Source: Nocardioides sp. T2.26MG-1 (lineage in GTDB: Bacteria > Actinomycetota > Actinomycetes > Propionibacteriales > Nocardioidaceae). Taken from it: a stretch of DNA of 64,000 nt. The notes beneath the pieces are model-generated. The model worked only from the letters and a program-made list of their open reading frames with translations, had not been told where the DNA came from and searched no databases. The translations under genes were made by a program, and so were the position numbers. Of the stretch, positions 37,029-43,900 are shown piece after piece. Position 1 is the first letter of the stretch. Every line of letters begins with the position of its first letter. The stretch covers positions 186,001 to 250,000 of the forward strand of contig NZ_CATNLZ010000023.1 in the NCBI RefSeq assembly GCF_950101795.1, read 5' to 3'.

Positions 37029-37310
37029 ATGTCTGATACCTCGACGCAGGGCCGCCACACGGCCGGCATCCTCGACATCCGCAACATCATCGGCAGCCTG
37101 ATCGGCGTGTACGGCGTGATCCTCACGCTGATGGGCCTGTTCGGCGACCAGGAGTCCGACAAGACCGGCGACGTCAACGCCAACCTCTGGGCCGGCCTGG
37201 TGATGATCGTGGTCGGCCTGGTGTTCGTGACCTGGGCCCGGCTCCGCCCGGTCGTCGTGCCCGAGCACCACGATCGACCCCAGGGCCCGCCTCACGACGA
37301 GGCGGCGTAG
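37029..37310 (+). CDS. two-span small membrane protein, symporter partner
   Basis: A 93-residue protein with two hydrophobic segments (IIGSLIGVYGVILTLMGLFG and LWAGLVMIVVGLVFVTWARL) and a hydrophilic C-tail. The connecting loop (DQESDKTGDVNAN) is polar. It starts 9 bases after the symporter stop with an AGGAGCCCGTC ribosome-binding region, so it is translated from the same message. Small partners of this kind are known for other SSS members such as PanF and the YhdT-type subunits; this one is an inference. It overlaps the convergent PASTA-like gene by 19 bases. Confidence 0.8.
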   Translation: MSDTSTQGRHTAGILDIRNIIGSLIGVYGVILTLMGLFGDQESDKTGDVNANLWAGLVMIVVGLVFVTWARLRPVVVPEHHDRPQGPPHDEAA

Positions 37311-38248
37311 AGCGCCACCGCCGCCACGCGGTGGGCGTCGTCGCGGTAGACCTCGACCCGCAGCGGGCACCCGGCGCGGGTCGGCGAGAAGATCAGCGCC
37401 GCGAACGCGTCACCGGTGCCGGCGACCGCCGGCTCGGGGACCCCGCAGTCGCCGGGCCCCTCGGTGGCGCGGACGATCCGGAGCGCCGGCACGGCGTACG
37501 TCAGGGGCAGGTCGTCGGTCAGCCGCACCCGTGAGGTCGCCTCCCGCAGGGCGTCCAGGACTCCCGTCTCGGCCCACGCCTCGGGGTCGGCTGCTTCGTC
37601 ACCGCTCAGCACGGTGGCCGGACCGTCGCCGGCGTACACGAAGACCCGGTCGGCGAACGCCGGGCCCGGGCCGCGCGCGTTGGCGAGGTCGACGAGCTGC
37701 CAAGTCGTCGAGCGCTGCTGGTAGGTGGTCAGACAGGTGATGTTGGCGGGGATCGAGGTGTAGAGCGTGATCGGGTCCCCGCGGTCGTACGCCGCACCTC
37801 GGGCGGGGTCGGTCCCGATCGCCCGGTCCGCCACCTCGCACGCGCGCACCGGCTCGACGGTCACCTCGAGGCCGAGGCCCTGCAGCAGGTCCTCGGCCGA
37901 CTGCCGACCGAACCCGAAGACCGAGGGCACCTGGTCGTCGTCCAGGTGGTCGACCGGCGGCTCGTCGGGACGGGTCAGGGCCACCACGGCGAGCACCGCC
38001 GCGAGCGCGGCCACGGCGGCGCCGATCGCCCGCCAGGGTGGTCGCCGCGGTTCGCGCGGCCCACGGACGGCGTCCTCGAGGGCCGCCTGCACGAGCGGGT
38101 CGGGGTCCTCCGCGTGGCGGATCCGCCGGTGCTGTGCGGCCAGGACCTGGCGGACCAGCGCGGGCGCGTCGTCCTCGTCGACGCCGAGGTCGACCGCGGT
38201 GCGGAGTAGCGCGTGCCACCGGGCGTCGGCGTACTCCTGCGGGTCCAC
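37292..38248 (-). CDS. single-span protein with PASTA-like and a repeated unknown domain
   Basis: A 318-residue protein. A cytosolic N-terminal segment (~1-70, HIRHAEDPDPLVQ-type helix), one span (AIGAAVAALAAVLAVVALT, ~73-91), a PASTA-like unit (DDQVPSVFGFGRQSAEDLLQ to ITLYTS), then a C-terminal domain of about 130 residues (starts TTWQLVDLANARGPGPAFAD, has VFVYAG and DPEAWAE, ends VEVYRDD). That last domain recurs in the two adjacent genes. PASTA domains bind peptidoglycan fragments in Ser/Thr kinases, but no kinase is here. The start ATG 38248 is placed by the SigE-cluster context. Gene distance to the next upstream is 5 bases, so it belongs to the same message. Confidence 0.75.
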   Translation of the reverse strand: MDPQEYADARWHALLRTAVDLGVDEDDAPALVRQVLAAQHRRIRHAEDPDPLVQAALEDAVRGPREPRRPPWRAIGAAVAALAAVLAVVALTRPDEPPVDHLDDDQVPSVFGFGRQSAEDLLQGLGLEVTVEPVRACEVADRAIGTDPARGAAYDRGDPITLYTSIPANITCLTTYQQRSTTWQLVDLANARGPGPAFADRVFVYAGDGPATVLSGDEAADPEAWAETGVLDALREATSRVRLTDDLPLTYAVPALRIVRATEGPGDCGVPEPAVAGTGDAFAALIFSPTRAGCPLRVEVYRDDAHRVAAVALYAASS

Positions 38249-38253
38249 CCTCC

Positions 38254-38871
38254 CTAGGGTTCACCCAGGAGCAAGGAGACGGCCACGAGCTCGCCGGCGT
38301 CGTTGCTGAACAGCTGCACCGCGAAGTCGTCGACGCACGAGTCCACCGATCCCGGCGCCGGCACGACCGCGACGTGGTTGAGCTTGCGCAGGTCGGGGGG
38401 CACCGGCCCGTAGGTCTTCAGGCAGCGGCCGTCGGGCGCGGCGACGTACGCGACGGCACGGTGGTCGGTCAGGACATCGAGCGGCGACAGCGGGCACGCG
38501 CGGCCGGCGTACTCGCCGAGCTCGGTGCAGGTCCCCCAGGCCTGGGGCCGGCGGGCCTGGGCCCGGGTGACGAACCCTGTGAGTGCGTTGCCGAGGTAGA
38601 GGTCCACCTGGTCGGCCAGCGGGGGCAGGTCGGACCCGTCCCGGGCGAAGGCCCGGAACGCCTCCGCCTCCTCCTGGCCCGCCGGCGCCGGGTCCGCCGG
38701 GGCACTCGCCGTCGTCGTCGGCGTGGCGGGCGCGCTGGTGGTCGGCGCGGGCGTGCTCGACGGCGTGGGCGTCGGCTCCTCGGCGGTGGTGGGTCCGGCA
38801 TCGGACCCACAGCCGGCCAGCAGGAGGATCCCCGACAGGGCCAGGGTGGCTGCTGCCCCGAGCCGCGTCAT
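38254..38871 (-). CDS. lipoprotein with the cluster's repeated domain
   Basis: A 205-residue lipoprotein. The signal ends in LLLAGCG (lipobox), followed by a Thr/Pro/Ala linker (to ~65) and one copy of the roughly 130-residue domain: AFRAFARDGSDLPPLADQ, VDLYLGNALTG, PQAWGTCTEL and the end VQLFSNDAGELVAVSLL. It sits between the two PASTA-like proteins, 18 bases after the 496-residue gene. Cys residues at TCTEL, RACPL, GRCLK and DSCVDD suggest disulfides outside. The function is unknown. Confidence 0.78.
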   Translation of the reverse strand: MTRLGAAATLALSGILLLAGCGSDAGPTTAEEPTPTPSSTPAPTTSAPATPTTTASAPADPAPAGQEEAEAFRAFARDGSDLPPLADQVDLYLGNALTGFVTRAQARRPQAWGTCTELGEYAGRACPLSPLDVLTDHRAVAYVAAPDGRCLKTYGPVPPDLRKLNHVAVVPAPGSVDSCVDDFAVQLFSNDAGELVAVSLLLGEP

Positions 38872-38889
38872 CGCTCCACCGTACGCGAG

Positions 38890-40380
38890 TCAGCTCCGGC
38901 CGGTCAGCAGGTCGACGGCGCGGATCGCGCCGTCGTCGTCGACCCAGACCAGCACCGACCAGTCGTCGCCGCAGCCACGTGGCTCGGGCACGGAGAGGCG
39001 CCAGGCGGCCGAGCTCGAGAGGCCGTCGGGGAGCTCGCCGCGCACGAGGCAGGAGTCCTGTCCGACGCCCGCGCCCTCGGACTGCGCGACCGGACCGGTG
39101 AGCCTCTCGAGGACCTCGCCCCAGGCCGTCGGGTCCGCCGCCTCCTCCGGGGTGAGCGTCGCCCACAGCCCGTCGGCGACGTACAGCTCGACCTGGCTCG
39201 CGACGGTGGGCGCCGGGCCGTCCCCGCGGGCGAAGGCGACGAGGTCGTCGGCGGCCTCGGTGAGCGGCGTCGGTACGACGAACGCGGAGCTGTCACACCC
39301 GGTCTGCCGGTCGACCACCCCGATGGTGACGGTCACGCCGGGCTCGACCTCGTCGCCCCAGGCGGGTGTCTGGGCCGCGACCGTGCCGACCTGGCCGCAG
39401 TCGGGCCGCGCCACCTCGTCGACGCCGTACCCGGCCGCCTCGAGACGGTCCCGGGCGTAGGCCGCGGAGTCGCCGACCACGTCCGGGGGGCCGGGTACGT
39501 CGCCGGGGGCGTGCACGTCCGAGACGAGCACCGCGTCGAGCGCGCCGGCCGGGTTGCGGAAGAGGGTGACTGCGGTGCAGGTCCCGAACAGGTGGACGCC
39601 GTCGGTCGGGATCCCCACCCACAGGACGAGTCCGCGGCGGCCGCGCAGCTCCTGCGGGCGCGGGCCGCAACCGCCGGGCCCGATCTGCGTGCCGAGCCCC
39701 GGGGTCTGGTAGACCGTGCTCCCGTCGCTGCTCCACCGCTGGACCTCGCCGACCGCCCGCCGCACGATGTCCAGTCCCGGCCACGACTGGGGGTTCGACG
39801 CCTCGGTGCGCGACAGCGTCGTGCGGTCGTCCCCGACGTAGACCGCCACCTCCCCGGCGAGCGGTGGTGCGTCACCGCGCCCCCTGGCGAAGTCGAGGAA
39901 CCGCCACGCAGCCTCGCGGTCCGGTCCGAGGTCGCGCCCGAGACACCCGGCGTCCGGGGCGGCCGTGGTGACGGTGACCGATGTGCCCGGATCGACCAGG
40001 GTGCCGGTCGCAGGCCTGGTCCCCAAGGCGCGCCCGGGCAGGTCGCGGCAGCTCGCGACGGTCGCGATGGTCCCGCGCAGGCCGAGATCCTGGAGCCGGT
40101 CCACGGCCTGCTCGGCGGTCAGCCCGAACACCGACGGCACCTGGTCGGGGCCGAGCCGGAAGCGACCGTCGTCCGGTGGAGGTGGGGCGGGCTCTGGGGT
40201 CCGACCGCCGCCGGGCAGGGTCACGGCCAGCAGGGCGGCGACCAGCACGATCGCGGCGGCCGCAGCGAGTGCCGGCCACCAGGGCCGCATCGGCGGGGCG
40301 GGCAGCGGGCCGGCCGGAGCGACCTCCACGGTGTCGCCGGCGAGGTGCAGGAGCCTGCGGGCATCGTCGTCGGTGAGCAT
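38890..40380 (-). CDS. single-span protein with two PASTA-like and two repeated unknown domains
   Basis: A 496-residue protein. A short N-terminal cytosolic part (about 30 residues) and one span (~35-55) are followed outside by PASTA-like unit 1 (DQVPSVFGLTAEQAVDRLQDLGL), unknown domain copy 1 (RFLDFARGRGDAPPLAGEVAVYVG ... FGTCTAVTLFRNPAGALDAVLV), PASTA-like unit 2 (GPPDVVGDSAAYARDRLEAAGYGVD) and unknown domain copy 2 (DLVAFARGDGPAPTVASQVELYVAD ... SVLVWVDDDGAIRAVDLL). Its ATG overlaps the sigma factor stop by one base (TGATG). The position is that of an anti-sigma factor, but no zinc-binding HxxxCxxC motif is visible, so that role is not supported by motif. Confidence 0.8.
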   Translation of the reverse strand: MLTDDDARRLLHLAGDTVEVAPAGPLPAPPMRPWWPALAAAAAIVLVAALLAVTLPGGGRTPEPAPPPPDDGRFRLGPDQVPSVFGLTAEQAVDRLQDLGLRGTIATVASCRDLPGRALGTRPATGTLVDPGTSVTVTTAAPDAGCLGRDLGPDREAAWRFLDFARGRGDAPPLAGEVAVYVGDDRTTLSRTEASNPQSWPGLDIVRRAVGEVQRWSSDGSTVYQTPGLGTQIGPGGCGPRPQELRGRRGLVLWVGIPTDGVHLFGTCTAVTLFRNPAGALDAVLVSDVHAPGDVPGPPDVVGDSAAYARDRLEAAGYGVDEVARPDCGQVGTVAAQTPAWGDEVEPGVTVTIGVVDRQTGCDSSAFVVPTPLTEAADDLVAFARGDGPAPTVASQVELYVADGLWATLTPEEAADPTAWGEVLERLTGPVAQSEGAGVGQDSCLVRGELPDGLSSSAAWRLSVPEPRGCGDDWSVLVWVDDDGAIRAVDLLTGRS

Positions 40381-40850
40381 CAGCTGCTCCTCACATGGTC
40401 GTCGGCGGCCAGCGCCGCCAGGGCGCGCGCGGTCCGGCTCTTCACGGTCCCAGGCGCGACGCCCAGGACCTCGGCGGTCTCGCGCTCGGAGAGGTCGGCG
40501 TAGTAGCGCAGCACCAGCACCTCGCGGTGGAGGAGGCTCATCGCCGCCAGGGCCTGGCGGACGGCCAGGCCGGCGGCCAGGTCAGGATCGGGGGTCGGTA
40601 CGTCGGGCAGCTCCTCGGTCGGCAGCTCACCGGTCCACCGGCGGGCCCGGGCGTCGCGCAGCGTGTTGACCAGGATCCGGTAGACGTACGCCTCCGGCTG
40701 ATCGGCCCGGACGACCCGCCGCCAGGACCGGAAGCAGCGCAGCAGTGCGGTCTGCACGACGTCCTCGGCGTCGGGCTGCGGGCAACCGAGCAGCACGGCG
40801 GTCCGCACCAGCGTGGGACGCCGCGCGGCGACGTACTCGCTGAAGTCCAT
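40380..40850 (-). CDS. SigE-family RNA polymerase sigma factor
   Basis: A 156-residue ECF-type sigma factor. Region 2 (residues ~10-65) carries the core-binding LLGCPQPDAEDVVQTALLRCFRSW and -10 recognition segment; region 4 (~105-150) has the helix-turn-helix ALAAMSLLHREVLVLRYYADLSERETAEVLGVAPGTVKSRTARALAAL, with the usual LRYYADLSE core. The SigE family name used here is the actinobacterial group, not E. coli RpoE. GGGAGG 7 bases upstream fixes the ATG at 40850. It is the first gene of the message that runs through the three envelope proteins, which it may regulate or be regulated by. Confidence 0.92.
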   Translation of the reverse strand: MDFSEYVAARRPTLVRTAVLLGCPQPDAEDVVQTALLRCFRSWRRVVRADQPEAYVYRILVNTLRDARARRWTGELPTEELPDVPTPDPDLAAGLAVRQALAAMSLLHREVLVLRYYADLSERETAEVLGVAPGTVKSRTARALAALAADDHVRSS

Positions 40851-40917
40851 GCGGCCTCCCGTCCGGTCCACACCGTATGACCGGCGAGTGGCACGGATCG
40901 GTTCCCGAGAACGCCGA

Positions 40918-40971
40918 ACGGGTCGTGTGCCTCAGCACGCGCGATGGCGCGTCCTGGGGCACACGACCCGT
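40918..40971 (-). terminator. 18-bp stem hairpin downstream of etfD
   Basis: Arms 40918-40935 and 40954-40971 (right arm ends GGCACACGACCCGT) pair with one G-U wobble around an 18-base loop, 10 bases after the etfD stop. Confidence 0.75.
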
Positions 40972-40980
40972 CGGTCGCGC

Positions 40981-43900
40981 TCAGAGGTCGAAAAGCGAGC
41001 CGGCCTCGTGGATGTCCACGTCGGTCTTCGGCTGGTGCGCCTCGCCGCTGGCCTGCGGCTGCGGCTTCTCCTCGGCCGCGGGCTCCTCGGGCTGCTCAGC
41101 CTCCGGCTCGGGCTCGGGCTCCGCTGCGGGCTCCGGCTCCGGCTCTGCGGCTGCCTCGGGCTCGGGCTCGGGCTCGCCGACCGCGGCGTTGGCGGCAGCG
41201 GTGGCCGAGGCGCTGAGCTCCTGCGGGTCGGGGGCCGCGATGTCGAACAGCGAGCCGCCCGAGCTCAGGTCGATCTCGGGCTGCGGCTCCGGCGCCTTCG
41301 CGGGCGCCGCCTTCGGCTCGGCTGCCGTCGGCTCGGCGGCCTTCGGCTCCTCGACCGTCGGCTCGGCGGCCTGCGGCTCCTCGGGAGCGGCGATGTCGAA
41401 CAGCGAGCCACCGGACCCGAGGTCGATCTCGGATTGCGGCTGCTGGGCGGGCTTCTCGGCTGCGGGGGTCTCGGCGGCGTTCGCCGGCGCTCGCTGCTCG
41501 GCCTCCGGTGCGGGCTCGGCGGCCTTCGGCTCGTCGGCGGCGATGTCGAACAGCGAGCCACCGGACCCGAGGTCGGTGTCGGGCTGGGCGGGCTTCTCGG
41601 CTGCCGGGGCCTCGGGGACGCTCGCCGGCGCTCGCTGCTCGACCTGCGGTGCGGGCTCGGCGGCCTTCGGCTCGGGCTCCGCGTCGCCGCCCAGGTCGAA
41701 CAGTGAGCCACCGGACGAGGCGGGCGGGGCCGGGGCCGGCTCGGCCTCCTCCTCGGCGGGCGCCGGGGTGTCGAACAGCGACGTGCCACCGGAGGCCTTG
41801 GCCGCCGGACCGACCTCCGCCGTCTCGGTGACGGTGTCGGTGGTCTGGGTGACGTCGCCCGCCTCCGGCTCCGCCTTGGTCTCCACCGACCGAGCAGCCG
41901 GGGCGGCGGCACCGCCGGAGCCGGGCGCGTACCGGGTGGCCATCTCGCCCTTGACCGAGGCGAGCAGCATCTGCGCCACGTCGAGCACCTCGACCTCGGC
42001 ACGGGCCGCGCCCTTGTCCTGCTGGGCGGTGAGCCCGTCGGAGAGCATCACCCGGCAGAACGGGCAGCCGACCGCGATCTGGTCGGCTCCGGTGCCGACC
42101 GCCTCGATGGTGCGGTTGTCGTTGATCCGCTCCCCGATGGTCTCCTCCATCCACATGCGCGCGCCGCCGGCGCCGCAGCAGAAGGACCGTTCGGAGTTGC
42201 GCTCCATCTCGACGACCTGTGCGCCGGGCAGCACCTGGAGCAGCTCGCGCGGCGGGGTGTAGACGCCGTTGTGGCGACCGATGTAGCACGGGTCGTGGTA
42301 GGTGATCGTGCGCTTGTGGGCGCCGGCACCCTCGCGCACCGGGGTCAGCTTGCCCTCGCGCACCAGCCGGTTGAGCAACTGCGTGTGGTGCACGACCTCG
42401 AGCTCGATGCCGAACTCCTTGTACTCGTTCTTGAGCGTGTTGAAGCAGTGGGCGCAGGTCGAGACGACCTTCTTGACCCGGTACTCCTTGAACGTCTCGA
42501 CGTTCTGCTGGGCGAGGCCCTGGAACACGAACTCGTTGCCGGCCCGGCGGGCGGAGTCACCCGTGCAGGTCTCGCCGTTGCCGAGCACGCCGAAGCTGAC
42601 GCCGGCGATGTCGAGCAGCTCGGCGACCGCGCGGGTGGTCTTCTTGGCCCGGTCCTCGTACGCGCCGGCGCAGCCGACCCAGAACAGCCAGTCGACCTCG
42701 TCGAGCGACTCGATGGTCTCTCCGACGACCTTGACCTCGAAGTCCAGGCCCTTGGCCCAGTCCATGCGCGCGTTGGGCGACATGTTCCAGGGGTTGCCGT
42801 TGTTCTCGAGGCCGCGGAACAGCTGGTTGAGCTCGCTGGGGAAGTTGGACTCGACGAGCACCTGGTAGCGGCGCATGTCGATGATGTGGTCGACGTGCTC
42901 GATGTCGACCGGGCACTGGTTCACGCACGCCCCGCAGGTCACGCACGACCACAGCACGTCGGGGTCGAGGACACCGGACCCGTCCTCGGGCATGTAGAAC
43001 CACTCGTCGCCGGTCTCCCCGATGAGCGGACGCTCGACCTCCTTGGTCAGCGTGGCGTTGCCCTCGAGCAGGCCCTCGCGCTTGCCCTCGTCGGCGAGCA
43101 GGTACGGCGCCTTCGCGAACGCCGCGTCGCGCAGCGCCATGATCATGAGCTTGGGCGAGAGCGGCTTCTCGGTGTTCCACGCCGGGCACTGCGACTGGCA
43201 TCGACCGCACTCGGTGCAGGTCGCCATGTCGAGCAGGCCCTTCCAGGTGAAGTCCTCGACCGCGCCGACGCCGAGCTTGGCGTCCTCGTCGAGGTCGTCG
43301 ATGTCGTCGAGGGTGACCGGCTTGCCGTCGGAGATCAGCGGCTTGGCGGCGCCGAGCGCGACCGGCTCGCGACCGAAGAGGATGTTGATCGGCGCCATGA
43401 AGATGTGCAGGTGCTTGGAGTTCAGCACGAAGATCAAGAACACCAGCATCACGCCGATGTGCAGGAGCAGGCCGATGCCGATCAGGGCGGTGCTGTCGGG
43501 GAGCACCTTGCCGAGCAGGTGCGAGACGAACGCCGCCTTGCCGTAGCCCTCCTCGCCGGTCGCCATGTCGCGGGCTGCGACCGCGCCGCGGAACAGGAAC
43601 ATCGTCCACACGACGTTGAAGATCATGAACAGCGTGAAGTACGCCGGGCCGAGGTGCGAGCCGAAGAAGCGGGACTTGCGGCCCATCTGCTTGGGCTGGT
43701 TGCGCAGCCGGATGGCCCAGAAGACGACGAGCCCGAGCGTGCACATCACGGCGATGAAGTCCTGGAGGAAGCCGAGGACGCCCCAGTTGTTGAAGACGAA
43801 CCAGTGCCATTGCGGGTCGCGCGCGATGAGTGCGGCGTACGCCTCGAGGTAGACCGTGGCCAGGATCAGGAACGCCCACATCACGAAGAAGTGCGCGGTG

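Follow-up and report, generated by a model that had tools for sequence, protein, structure and literature searches.

The stretch of DNA considered here, referred to as the window, comprises 64,000 nucleotides (nt) of Nocardioides sp. T2.26MG-1 (contig NZ_CATNLZ010000023.1, positions 186,001 to 250,000). According to its list of open reading frames (ORFs), the minus strand carries, in 5' to 3' direction, four closely packed genes encoding a sigma factor and three envelope proteins of 496, 205 and 318 residues, termed P496, P205 and P318. An earlier note on this DNA had drawn attention to a domain shared by the three envelope proteins. The main interest of the locus lies rather in a feature which that note had not seen: the cytosolic end of P318 consists of a sigma region 2 in degenerate form, related to the neighboring sigma factor. 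It is quite probable that P318 belongs to a Nocardioides lineage of pseudo-sigma-2 receptors, which would have arisen by fusion of an extracytoplasmic function (ECF) sigma factor with its membrane partner, been stripped of RNA polymerase-binding residues and been kept by selection after loss of the parent sigma, with the sigma domain serving as intracellular receptor output.

Organization of the locus

The sigma gene (40380..40850, minus strand) begins at the ATG at 40850 within an ORF spanning 40380-40871 of the same strand. Its product passes the SigE-family model TIGR02983 (157.1 bits versus the curated cut-off of 141.55) and features Pfam regions 2 and 4, and the gene is preceded by an ECF-type promoter of its own (40879..40905, minus), GGAACC-N17-GGTC, which constitutes the sole match in the window at 0.17 expected. 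The stop codon of the sigma gene is overlapped by the start of the P496 gene (38890..40380, minus), while the next junctions are gaps of 18 and 5 nt. P496, located in the anti-sigma position, comprises a cytosolic tail of about 33 residues, a transmembrane (TM) span, PASTA, copy d1 of the shared domain (39508..39927, minus), again PASTA and copy d2 (38893..39270, minus); PASTA (PF03793) scores 62.1 bits, above the cut-off of 23.2. The tail (40282..40380, minus) is a putative anti-sigma segment recognized by a tail profile, similar in sigma-linked relatives and present inside fusion proteins. P205 (38254..38871, minus) carries a lipoprotein-type signal, as read directly from the sequence, and a single domain copy of the d2 subtype (38257-38685).

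P318 (37292..38248, minus), the putative pseudo-sigma-2 receptor, is composed of the degenerate sigma region 2 (residues 1-62; 38063..38248, minus), a membrane span indicated by hydrophobicity and a helix in the structure model (residues 72-92; 37973..38035, minus), a PASTA unit (37745..37939, minus) and one domain copy of the d1 subtype (37295..37729, minus), the latter recognized by pairwise scores, profile and structure match. The PASTA unit stays below the PF03793 cut-off (19 bits versus 23.2), and its model matches the PASTA domain of PknB with Z 11.9 and rmsd (root mean square deviation) 1.4 over 65 residues. The ORF positions, the SigE-family sigma factor, the PASTA-like units of P496 and the lipoprotein anchor of the earlier note are all borne out, as is its remark that no kinase is nearby, given that none of the 14 kinase matches of the genome lies inside the window.

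A degenerate sigma region 2 at the cytosolic end of P318

The N-terminus of P318 shares 37% identity over 71 residues with the neighboring sigma factor (BLASTP E 2e-6), and the corresponding alignment score of 86 exceeds the maximum of 66 obtained in 2000 shuffles. TIGR02983 recognizes residues 4-57 only, with 20.2 bits and E 4e-4, far below its cut-off; thus, by this score and by the lack of a detectable region 4, P318 does not rank among the SigE-family sigma factors. Sigma region 4 was not found in P318 by profile search, and residues 1-92 were read to be devoid of cysteine, so a zinc finger before the TM span is absent. In the structure model, residues 1-60 reach predicted local distance difference test (pLDDT) scores of 95-97 in blocks, and the head superimposes on the region 2 structures of the ECF sigma factors CnrH, SigL, SigC and SigR with rmsd 1.9-2.4 A over 62-63 residues, these matches being derived from realignment of the best 1000 of Foldseek. 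In addition, a profile built from 10 sigma factors of the locus matches the N-terminus of 35 of the 39 distinct P318 relatives.

Two architectures have to be distinguished among these relatives. In type A, a sigma gene is followed by a protein of tail, TM span, PASTA and domain, while type B combines a sigma-2-like head, TM span, PASTA and domain in one protein. Residue counts compare the 39 distinct type B proteins with 12 sigma factors of the locus. Y6, R10, L14, P52, V56 and L60 are retained in 39/39 type B proteins, A28 and V32 in 38/39. On the other hand, positions invariant in the sigma factors are lost, among them E29 and D30, each persisting in 1/39, Q33 in 2/39, W43 and Y55 in none and R58 in 3/39. 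Counted on 90-residue heads, D66 occurs in 0/39 and R68 in 18/39. A three-residue deletion is common to all 23 heads aligned, and a new DPD motif occurs in 39/39. By their D-x-x-Q spacing, D30 and Q33 are taken here to correspond to D403 and Q406 of sigma-70, presumably contacts of the polymerase clamp, and functional roles for W43 and Y55 are likewise assumed. The type B heads thus keep core positions of the sigma-2 fold, while the residues expected to contact RNA polymerase are largely missing.

Distribution of P318-type proteins

P496 matches at E up to 0.001 were obtained in 42 of 147 genomes of the genus, a part of which cover no more than PASTA or the tail, and a scan of named genomes for P318 relatives yielded 17 loci, all from Nocardioides. 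In total, 68 stretches were read (31 neighborhoods, these 17 named loci, several of which repeat genomes of the neighborhood set, and 20 more). At least one neighbor gene of the window recurs in 40 of the 68, namely what we take to be a Fe-S oxidoreductase, a sodium symporter and a HicB-like or DUF4097-like gene, as well as a gene for a 93-aa protein; these shared neighbors point to one orthologous locus in differing states. The 39 distinct type B proteins comprise 22 at the orthologous locus and 17 where no shared neighbors were found, and a separate sigma ORF is present in the fetched stretch in 4 of the 39 cases (the window, L043, L203 and L204), the sigma factors of L203 and L204 being more distant ones. 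In a family sample of 294 genomes, type B heads score at least 73.6 bits and sigma factors at most 62.5. The former account for 34 matches in 33/294 genomes, all of the same genus, and all but G290 were also read in stretches. In the class sample, only two genomes lie above this gap of 62.5-73.6 bits, both of the same genus.

At the orthologous locus of Nocardioides halotolerans (L081), two tandem pseudo-sigma-2 proteins accompany a domain lipoprotein, whereas N. mangrovi (L076) has just the pseudo-sigma protein there. Pseudo-sigma-2 genes away from the shared neighbors are those of L065, L066, L082-L086, L203-L205 and L210-L221, and the one of L085 adjoins a peptide ABC transporter and a dehydrogenase gene. 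The Fe-S oxidoreductase of the window (40981-41700, minus) extends at its C-terminus into a long tail in which GGSLFDL-type motifs recur, and some other loci seem to encode similar tails.

Probable origin by fusion of a sigma factor with its partner

In a tree based on 75 columns, a short alignment with a long L044 branch, 23 heads form one clade (100/99), and the heads together with the 12 locus sigmas are split from 19 sigma paralogues of the genome (95/85). A tree of the extracytoplasmic domain groups 24 type B domains with 5 of 11 d1 copies of partner proteins, the one of the window included (96/86), while the other six fall on the opposite side; the P205 copy resides among d2-type, single and lipoprotein copies (100/95).

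Both parental parts are still recognizable in two proteins of the orthologous locus. L202 encodes, in a single frame of 450 aa, a head and a region 4 (E 6e-12), both degenerate, followed by a partner tail (E 4e-10), a TM span, PASTA and the domain, and L044 shows the same composition more weakly (region 4 E 1.5e-5, partner tail E 5e-5), all E-values referring to the 54 sequences searched. Among the pseudo-sigma proteins, a remnant of region 4 was detected only in these two, which are apparent fusion intermediates as far as their sequences tell. L046 (5347-7266) is an in-frame fusion of another kind, with the usual region 2 residues (E-D-Q, W, Y), a truncated region 4, the partner tail and a preserved ECF promoter; it comes from an assembly of about 360 contigs and represents either a separate fusion or an assembly error.

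A fusion origin of P318 is thus well supported by sequence comparison. Within Nocardioides, the sigma factor of the locus would have merged with one copy of the partner protein made up of tail, TM span, PASTA and domain; the fused sigma part would then have lost residues which are invariant in working sigma factors; and region 4 and the partner tail would have eroded in most descendants, leaving a head, TM span, PASTA and NTF2-like domain.

Persistence without the parent sigma factor

In three close relatives, the sigma gene and P496 are missing. L070, a metagenome assembly, aligns to the window except for 38890-40905, i.e. the sigma gene, its promoter and P496. In L071, the gap also takes in about half of P205, and in L049 almost the whole of it. 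Each of the three retains an intact P318. The missing stretch begins just past a hairpin (40919..40970, minus) located in the interval that separates the Fe-S oxidoreductase gene from the sigma gene with its promoter, a possible terminator whose surroundings (40905-40985) have a folding energy of -63.8 kcal/mol (z -9.5). The left borders (40903-40915) agree within about 12 nt, so the three states may derive from one loss that was later extended.

The ratio of nonsynonymous to synonymous substitution rates (dN/dS) of the head among L070, L071 and L049 amounts to 0.16, 0.17 and 0.19 as estimated by a simple count method for a GC-rich genome; the 5-95% bootstrap limits do not leave the range of 0.05-0.36. 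The ratio of the head is the lowest of the four P318 parts in two of three pairs and tied with that of the TM part in the third, and in one pair PASTA is under much weaker constraint (0.89). The sigma-like part of P318 hence looks to be under purifying selection, and decay toward a pseudogene is unlikely in view of the low ratios and of core positions kept in 39/39 proteins. Of 18 chosen genomes, those four that have type A loci (G009, G010, G025 and G108) contain a sigma factor at 71-79% identity, and the best sigma match of the remaining 14 reaches 46-59%, the latter set including a locus that ends at a contig edge (G041), a genome 85% complete (G004), the L046 fusion (G090) and a stretch without a pseudo-sigma protein (G060).

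The sigma factor, its partner and their promoter

With about 33 residues before the TM span, the cytosolic tail of P496 is shorter than the 50-aa limit for class I anti-sigma domains applied in PMC7406223. It contains no cysteine on direct reading and hence no zinc motif of the HxxxCxxC type, in keeping with what the earlier note had stated for the protein in this position. CnrY, a class II anti-sigma factor, is likewise a membrane protein with a short cytosolic anti-sigma part (PMC4598750, PMC7406223), and P496 fits it in tail length alone. Anti-sigma factors of class II embrace sigma 2 and sigma 4 by means of two helices. A profile of 12 tails, searched against 54 sequences, retrieves L202 (E 3.6e-10), L046 (E 8e-10) and L044 (E 5e-5).

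GGAAC and CGGT at ECF spacing are found 53-66 nt upstream of 13/13 sigma genes of the locus, including that of L067, which scores low against the sigma profile, and the same site lies 48 nt before the L046 fusion. Within 200 nt upstream of type B genes (111 nt for L047) it was detected in 0/39; shuffled sequence yields it at 0.4%, and the pattern was picked after the upstream sequences had been read. In the window, where P318 closes the operon, its transcription could start from the sigma promoter. At the orthologous locus, TAGCGT recurs at -21 to -27 of eight type B genes and may mark a promoter of another kind; counts of upstream 7-mers and spaced words were mostly composition noise. A wider sigma regulon was considered and dropped, as 14 promoter-like matches in the own genome compare with 8 for the reversed pattern, without clear excess beyond the site of the operon.

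The sigma factor and P496 form a separate, probably autoregulated SigE-family pair within the same operon. The combination of a SigE-family sigma factor with a single-pass partner is that of TIGR02983 loci, from whose typical partner P496 differs by PASTA and the new domain outside. The genome holds further pairs of this type: among its 20 best SigE-like sigma factors (L135-L154), 19 of which score above the family cut-off, 17 precede an ORF predicted to contain a membrane span after about 32-47 residues of tail, on start codons chosen by us. SigE-like sigma factors may thus be paired generally with possible short anti-sigma tails, and targets of P318 beyond P496 may exist.

The extracytoplasmic domain

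The domain of about 140 residues occurs once in P318, once in P205 and twice in P496. Local scores between the four copies range from 59 to 131 versus shuffle means of 29.5-34.1, with z 11-15 in 5 of 6 pairs; z drops to 4.7 in the weakest pair (P318-P205), whose score is still above all 200 shuffles. This substantiates the four related copies proposed in the earlier note, although its motif is loose, since P318 reads LANARGPGPAFA in place of F-A-R. A fifth copy resides elsewhere in the genome in a 277-aa PASTA lipoprotein (C33; L069 / L002), whose 12 kb stretch lacks a match to a sigma factor of the locus type. A seed profile of the five copies collected 50 copies in 31 neighborhoods within three iterations, and two cysteines are invariant in 26/26 aligned copies. 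Carriers amount to 80/294 genomes and 11/26 genera in the family sample and to 13/394 genomes in the class sample, four of them outside the family and one of these weak (E 8e-4).

That the domain is new is consistent with the profile searches: Pfam gave no convincing match for any of 46 copies (best E 0.048, in one copy), NCBIfam none to this domain in the window proteins, and the sequences of the PDB none (best E 0.14). The P205 domain was modeled with pLDDT 94.3 and a predicted template modeling (pTM) score of 0.90, and its structure matches are by title mostly NTF2-like, ketosteroid isomerase and SnoaL-type proteins, with Z up to 7.1 and Foldseek E 0.03. The P318 copy likewise tends toward NTF2-like proteins (Z 7.8), so a similar fold is indicated for the two modeled copies, which represent one subtype each. 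The outcomes named as refuting in the earlier note, a profile match to a family of known function or differing folds, hence did not arise in these searches and in the two models. The fold may most resemble the cone-like alpha+beta fold of NTF2-like proteins, a lead rather than an assignment owing to the weak match. A viral fold was dropped (best E 0.18). GerMN, an idea derived from secondary structure, has no entry among the fold matches listed, which decides nothing.

Proposed function and alternative explanations

Since region 4 is missing, sigma factor activity of P318 is not to be expected. It is tentatively proposed, at somewhat less than an even chance, that P318 functions as a membrane receptor of the single-pass type, with a repurposed sigma region 2 in the cytosol. 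Anchored in the membrane, this head would mimic a sigma factor and bind anti-sigma-type tails instead of RNA polymerase. The PASTA and NTF2-like parts would sense an envelope ligand, and the head would present the face which is bound by the last helix of anti-sigma factors. It would thereby compete for the short cytosolic tails of SigE-family partners, i.e. of P496 or, where this is absent, of paralogous partners, and tail capture would set the partner sigma factors free. According to PMC7406223, the last helix of class I as well as class II anti-sigma factors binds sigma 2, and PhyR, as portrayed in PMC8103513 and PMC4598750, illustrates how an anti-sigma factor can be titrated by a sigma-like domain whose contacts are degenerate. 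P318 would represent a membrane-anchored analogue of this mimicry. Its binding partner is presumed to be an anti-sigma-type tail.

The comparison with PhyR extends to several traits. In the same papers (PMC8103513, PMC4598750), the alphaproteobacterial protein has an ECF sigma-like domain with apparently degenerate polymerase and promoter regions, for which sigma activity is not expected. A degenerate sigma-like domain is likewise present in P318, with contact roles that are assumed and basic residues that persist, while a sigma-4 part and a receiver were not found in it. NepR is the target on the side of PhyR, the counterpart for P318 being putative.

Several observations weigh against the sigma-mimic proposal. 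No sigma factor is among the best 50 Foldseek matches of P318, which are mainly PASTA and NTF2-like proteins, and the Z of 7-8 for the match to ECF sigma-2 structures is by itself indecisive for a helical bundle. The similarity is modest also at the level of profiles, with TIGR02983 finding 9 of 15 P318-type members at E up to 0.1 and Pfam region 2 recognized in 0/15 heads. Part of the divergence underlying the dN/dS values may predate the loss of the sigma factor. Residues 60-75 contain 0-6 R/K compared with 3-5 in the sigma factors; with basic residues thus still present ahead of the membrane span, some contact with nucleic acids may have survived. The partner tail was lost from most pseudo-sigma proteins. 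Moreover, P318 outlasts both its parent sigma and P496, hence P496 cannot be its only target, and paralogous partner tails are a conjecture. Finally, PhyR is depicted in the above sources as sigma-2, sigma-4 and receiver rather than as a membrane receptor, whereas P318 consists of sigma 2 only, a TM span and PASTA outside.

The strongest alternative holds that the sigma-2 fold was co-opted outside any sigma/anti-sigma relationship, as a dimerization or docking module for another cytosolic protein and thus as a new receptor output. This is possible, if rather doubtful. It would accord with the constraint on the head in the three relatives missing parent sigma and P496, with the DPD motif of all 39 proteins, with the 17 type B genes away from the shared neighbors, among them the one beside a peptide ABC transporter, and with a separate sigma gene remaining undetected in the fetched stretch in 35 of 39 cases, some of these cut by contig ends. 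It is opposed by the conserved core, which spans regions 2.1-2.2, where anti-sigma helices bind according to PMC7406223, and by the many SigE-type pairs with short-tailed partners in the genome.

Alternatively, P318 and P205 could be co-receptors of the sigma/P496 pathway, interacting via their outside domains with the head as a passive cap. The shared operon layout in this genome agrees with this, as does the fact that the d1-type domain of P318 and the d2-type domain of P205 jointly match P496. Nevertheless, it is improbable, given that in the absence of sigma and P496 the head is the most constrained part in two of three pairs, tied with the TM part in the third, and that the same head core is found in 39/39 proteins. 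Still less credence is given to a membrane-tethered decoy, in which the head would bind the beta-prime clamp and keep RNA polymerase from sigma factors. Region 2 is the chief polymerase-binding part of sigma factors, yet D30 is lost in 38/39 and Q33 in 37/39 proteins, residues presumed to be equivalent to D403 and Q406 of sigma-70.

A working sigma factor held at the membrane and released by proteolysis, as proposed for ECF52, is the least credible explanation, although fusions of sigma factor, TM span and outside domain are on record in PMC8999054 and PMC5826349. It is contradicted for P318, which has no detectable region 4 and lacks the invariant region 2 residues; the intermediates with a region 4 remnant (L044, L202) also carry a degenerate region 2. 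At most it might apply to the L046 fusion, which keeps the E-D-Q, W and Y residues along with an ECF promoter. The same papers (PMC8999054, PMC5826349) present the actinobacterial groups ECF48, ECF52 and ECF53 as ECF sigma parts fused to a TM span, similar to P318, an example being SCO4117 with a carbohydrate-binding domain outside. There they figure as sigma factors that possess a zinc finger, in contrast to P318, which is devoid of region 4, the invariant region 2 residues and the zinc motif; neither a complete sigma domain of regions 2 and 4 nor a zinc finger before the TM span, as in ECF52-like proteins, was found in it. PknB-type PASTA kinases share PASTA outside and a single TM span with P318 and P496, where a Pfam scan did not find a kinase domain and the inner part is a pseudo-sigma 2 or a short tail instead.

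Significance for sigma factor signaling in Nocardioides

The sigma pathway with an envelope partner anticipated in the earlier note stands with respect to the sigma factor and the position of P496. P318, on the contrary, is not simply part of that pathway, given its persistence in relatives without sigma and P496. Cell-wall sensing is suggested by the PASTA units. Among the papers listed in literature searches with limited reach into subscription journals, none describes the new domain or a degenerate sigma-2 head on a membrane protein.

The finding may constitute a further form of sigma mimicry and of sigma-receptor fusion. Sigma mimicry is described in PMC8103513 and PMC4598750 for the PhyR system of Alphaproteobacteria, and the present proteins look like a separate actinobacterial case, membrane-anchored and joined to a wall-type sensor. 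The evolutionary steps appear to be still visible, from a separate pair via a two-region fusion and the loss of region 4 to the loss of the parent. These proteins would allow the capabilities of a sigma-2 fold freed from RNA polymerase service to be studied in natural variants, and they raise the question whether a receptor can compete for the anti-sigma tails of the numerous SigE-type pairs.

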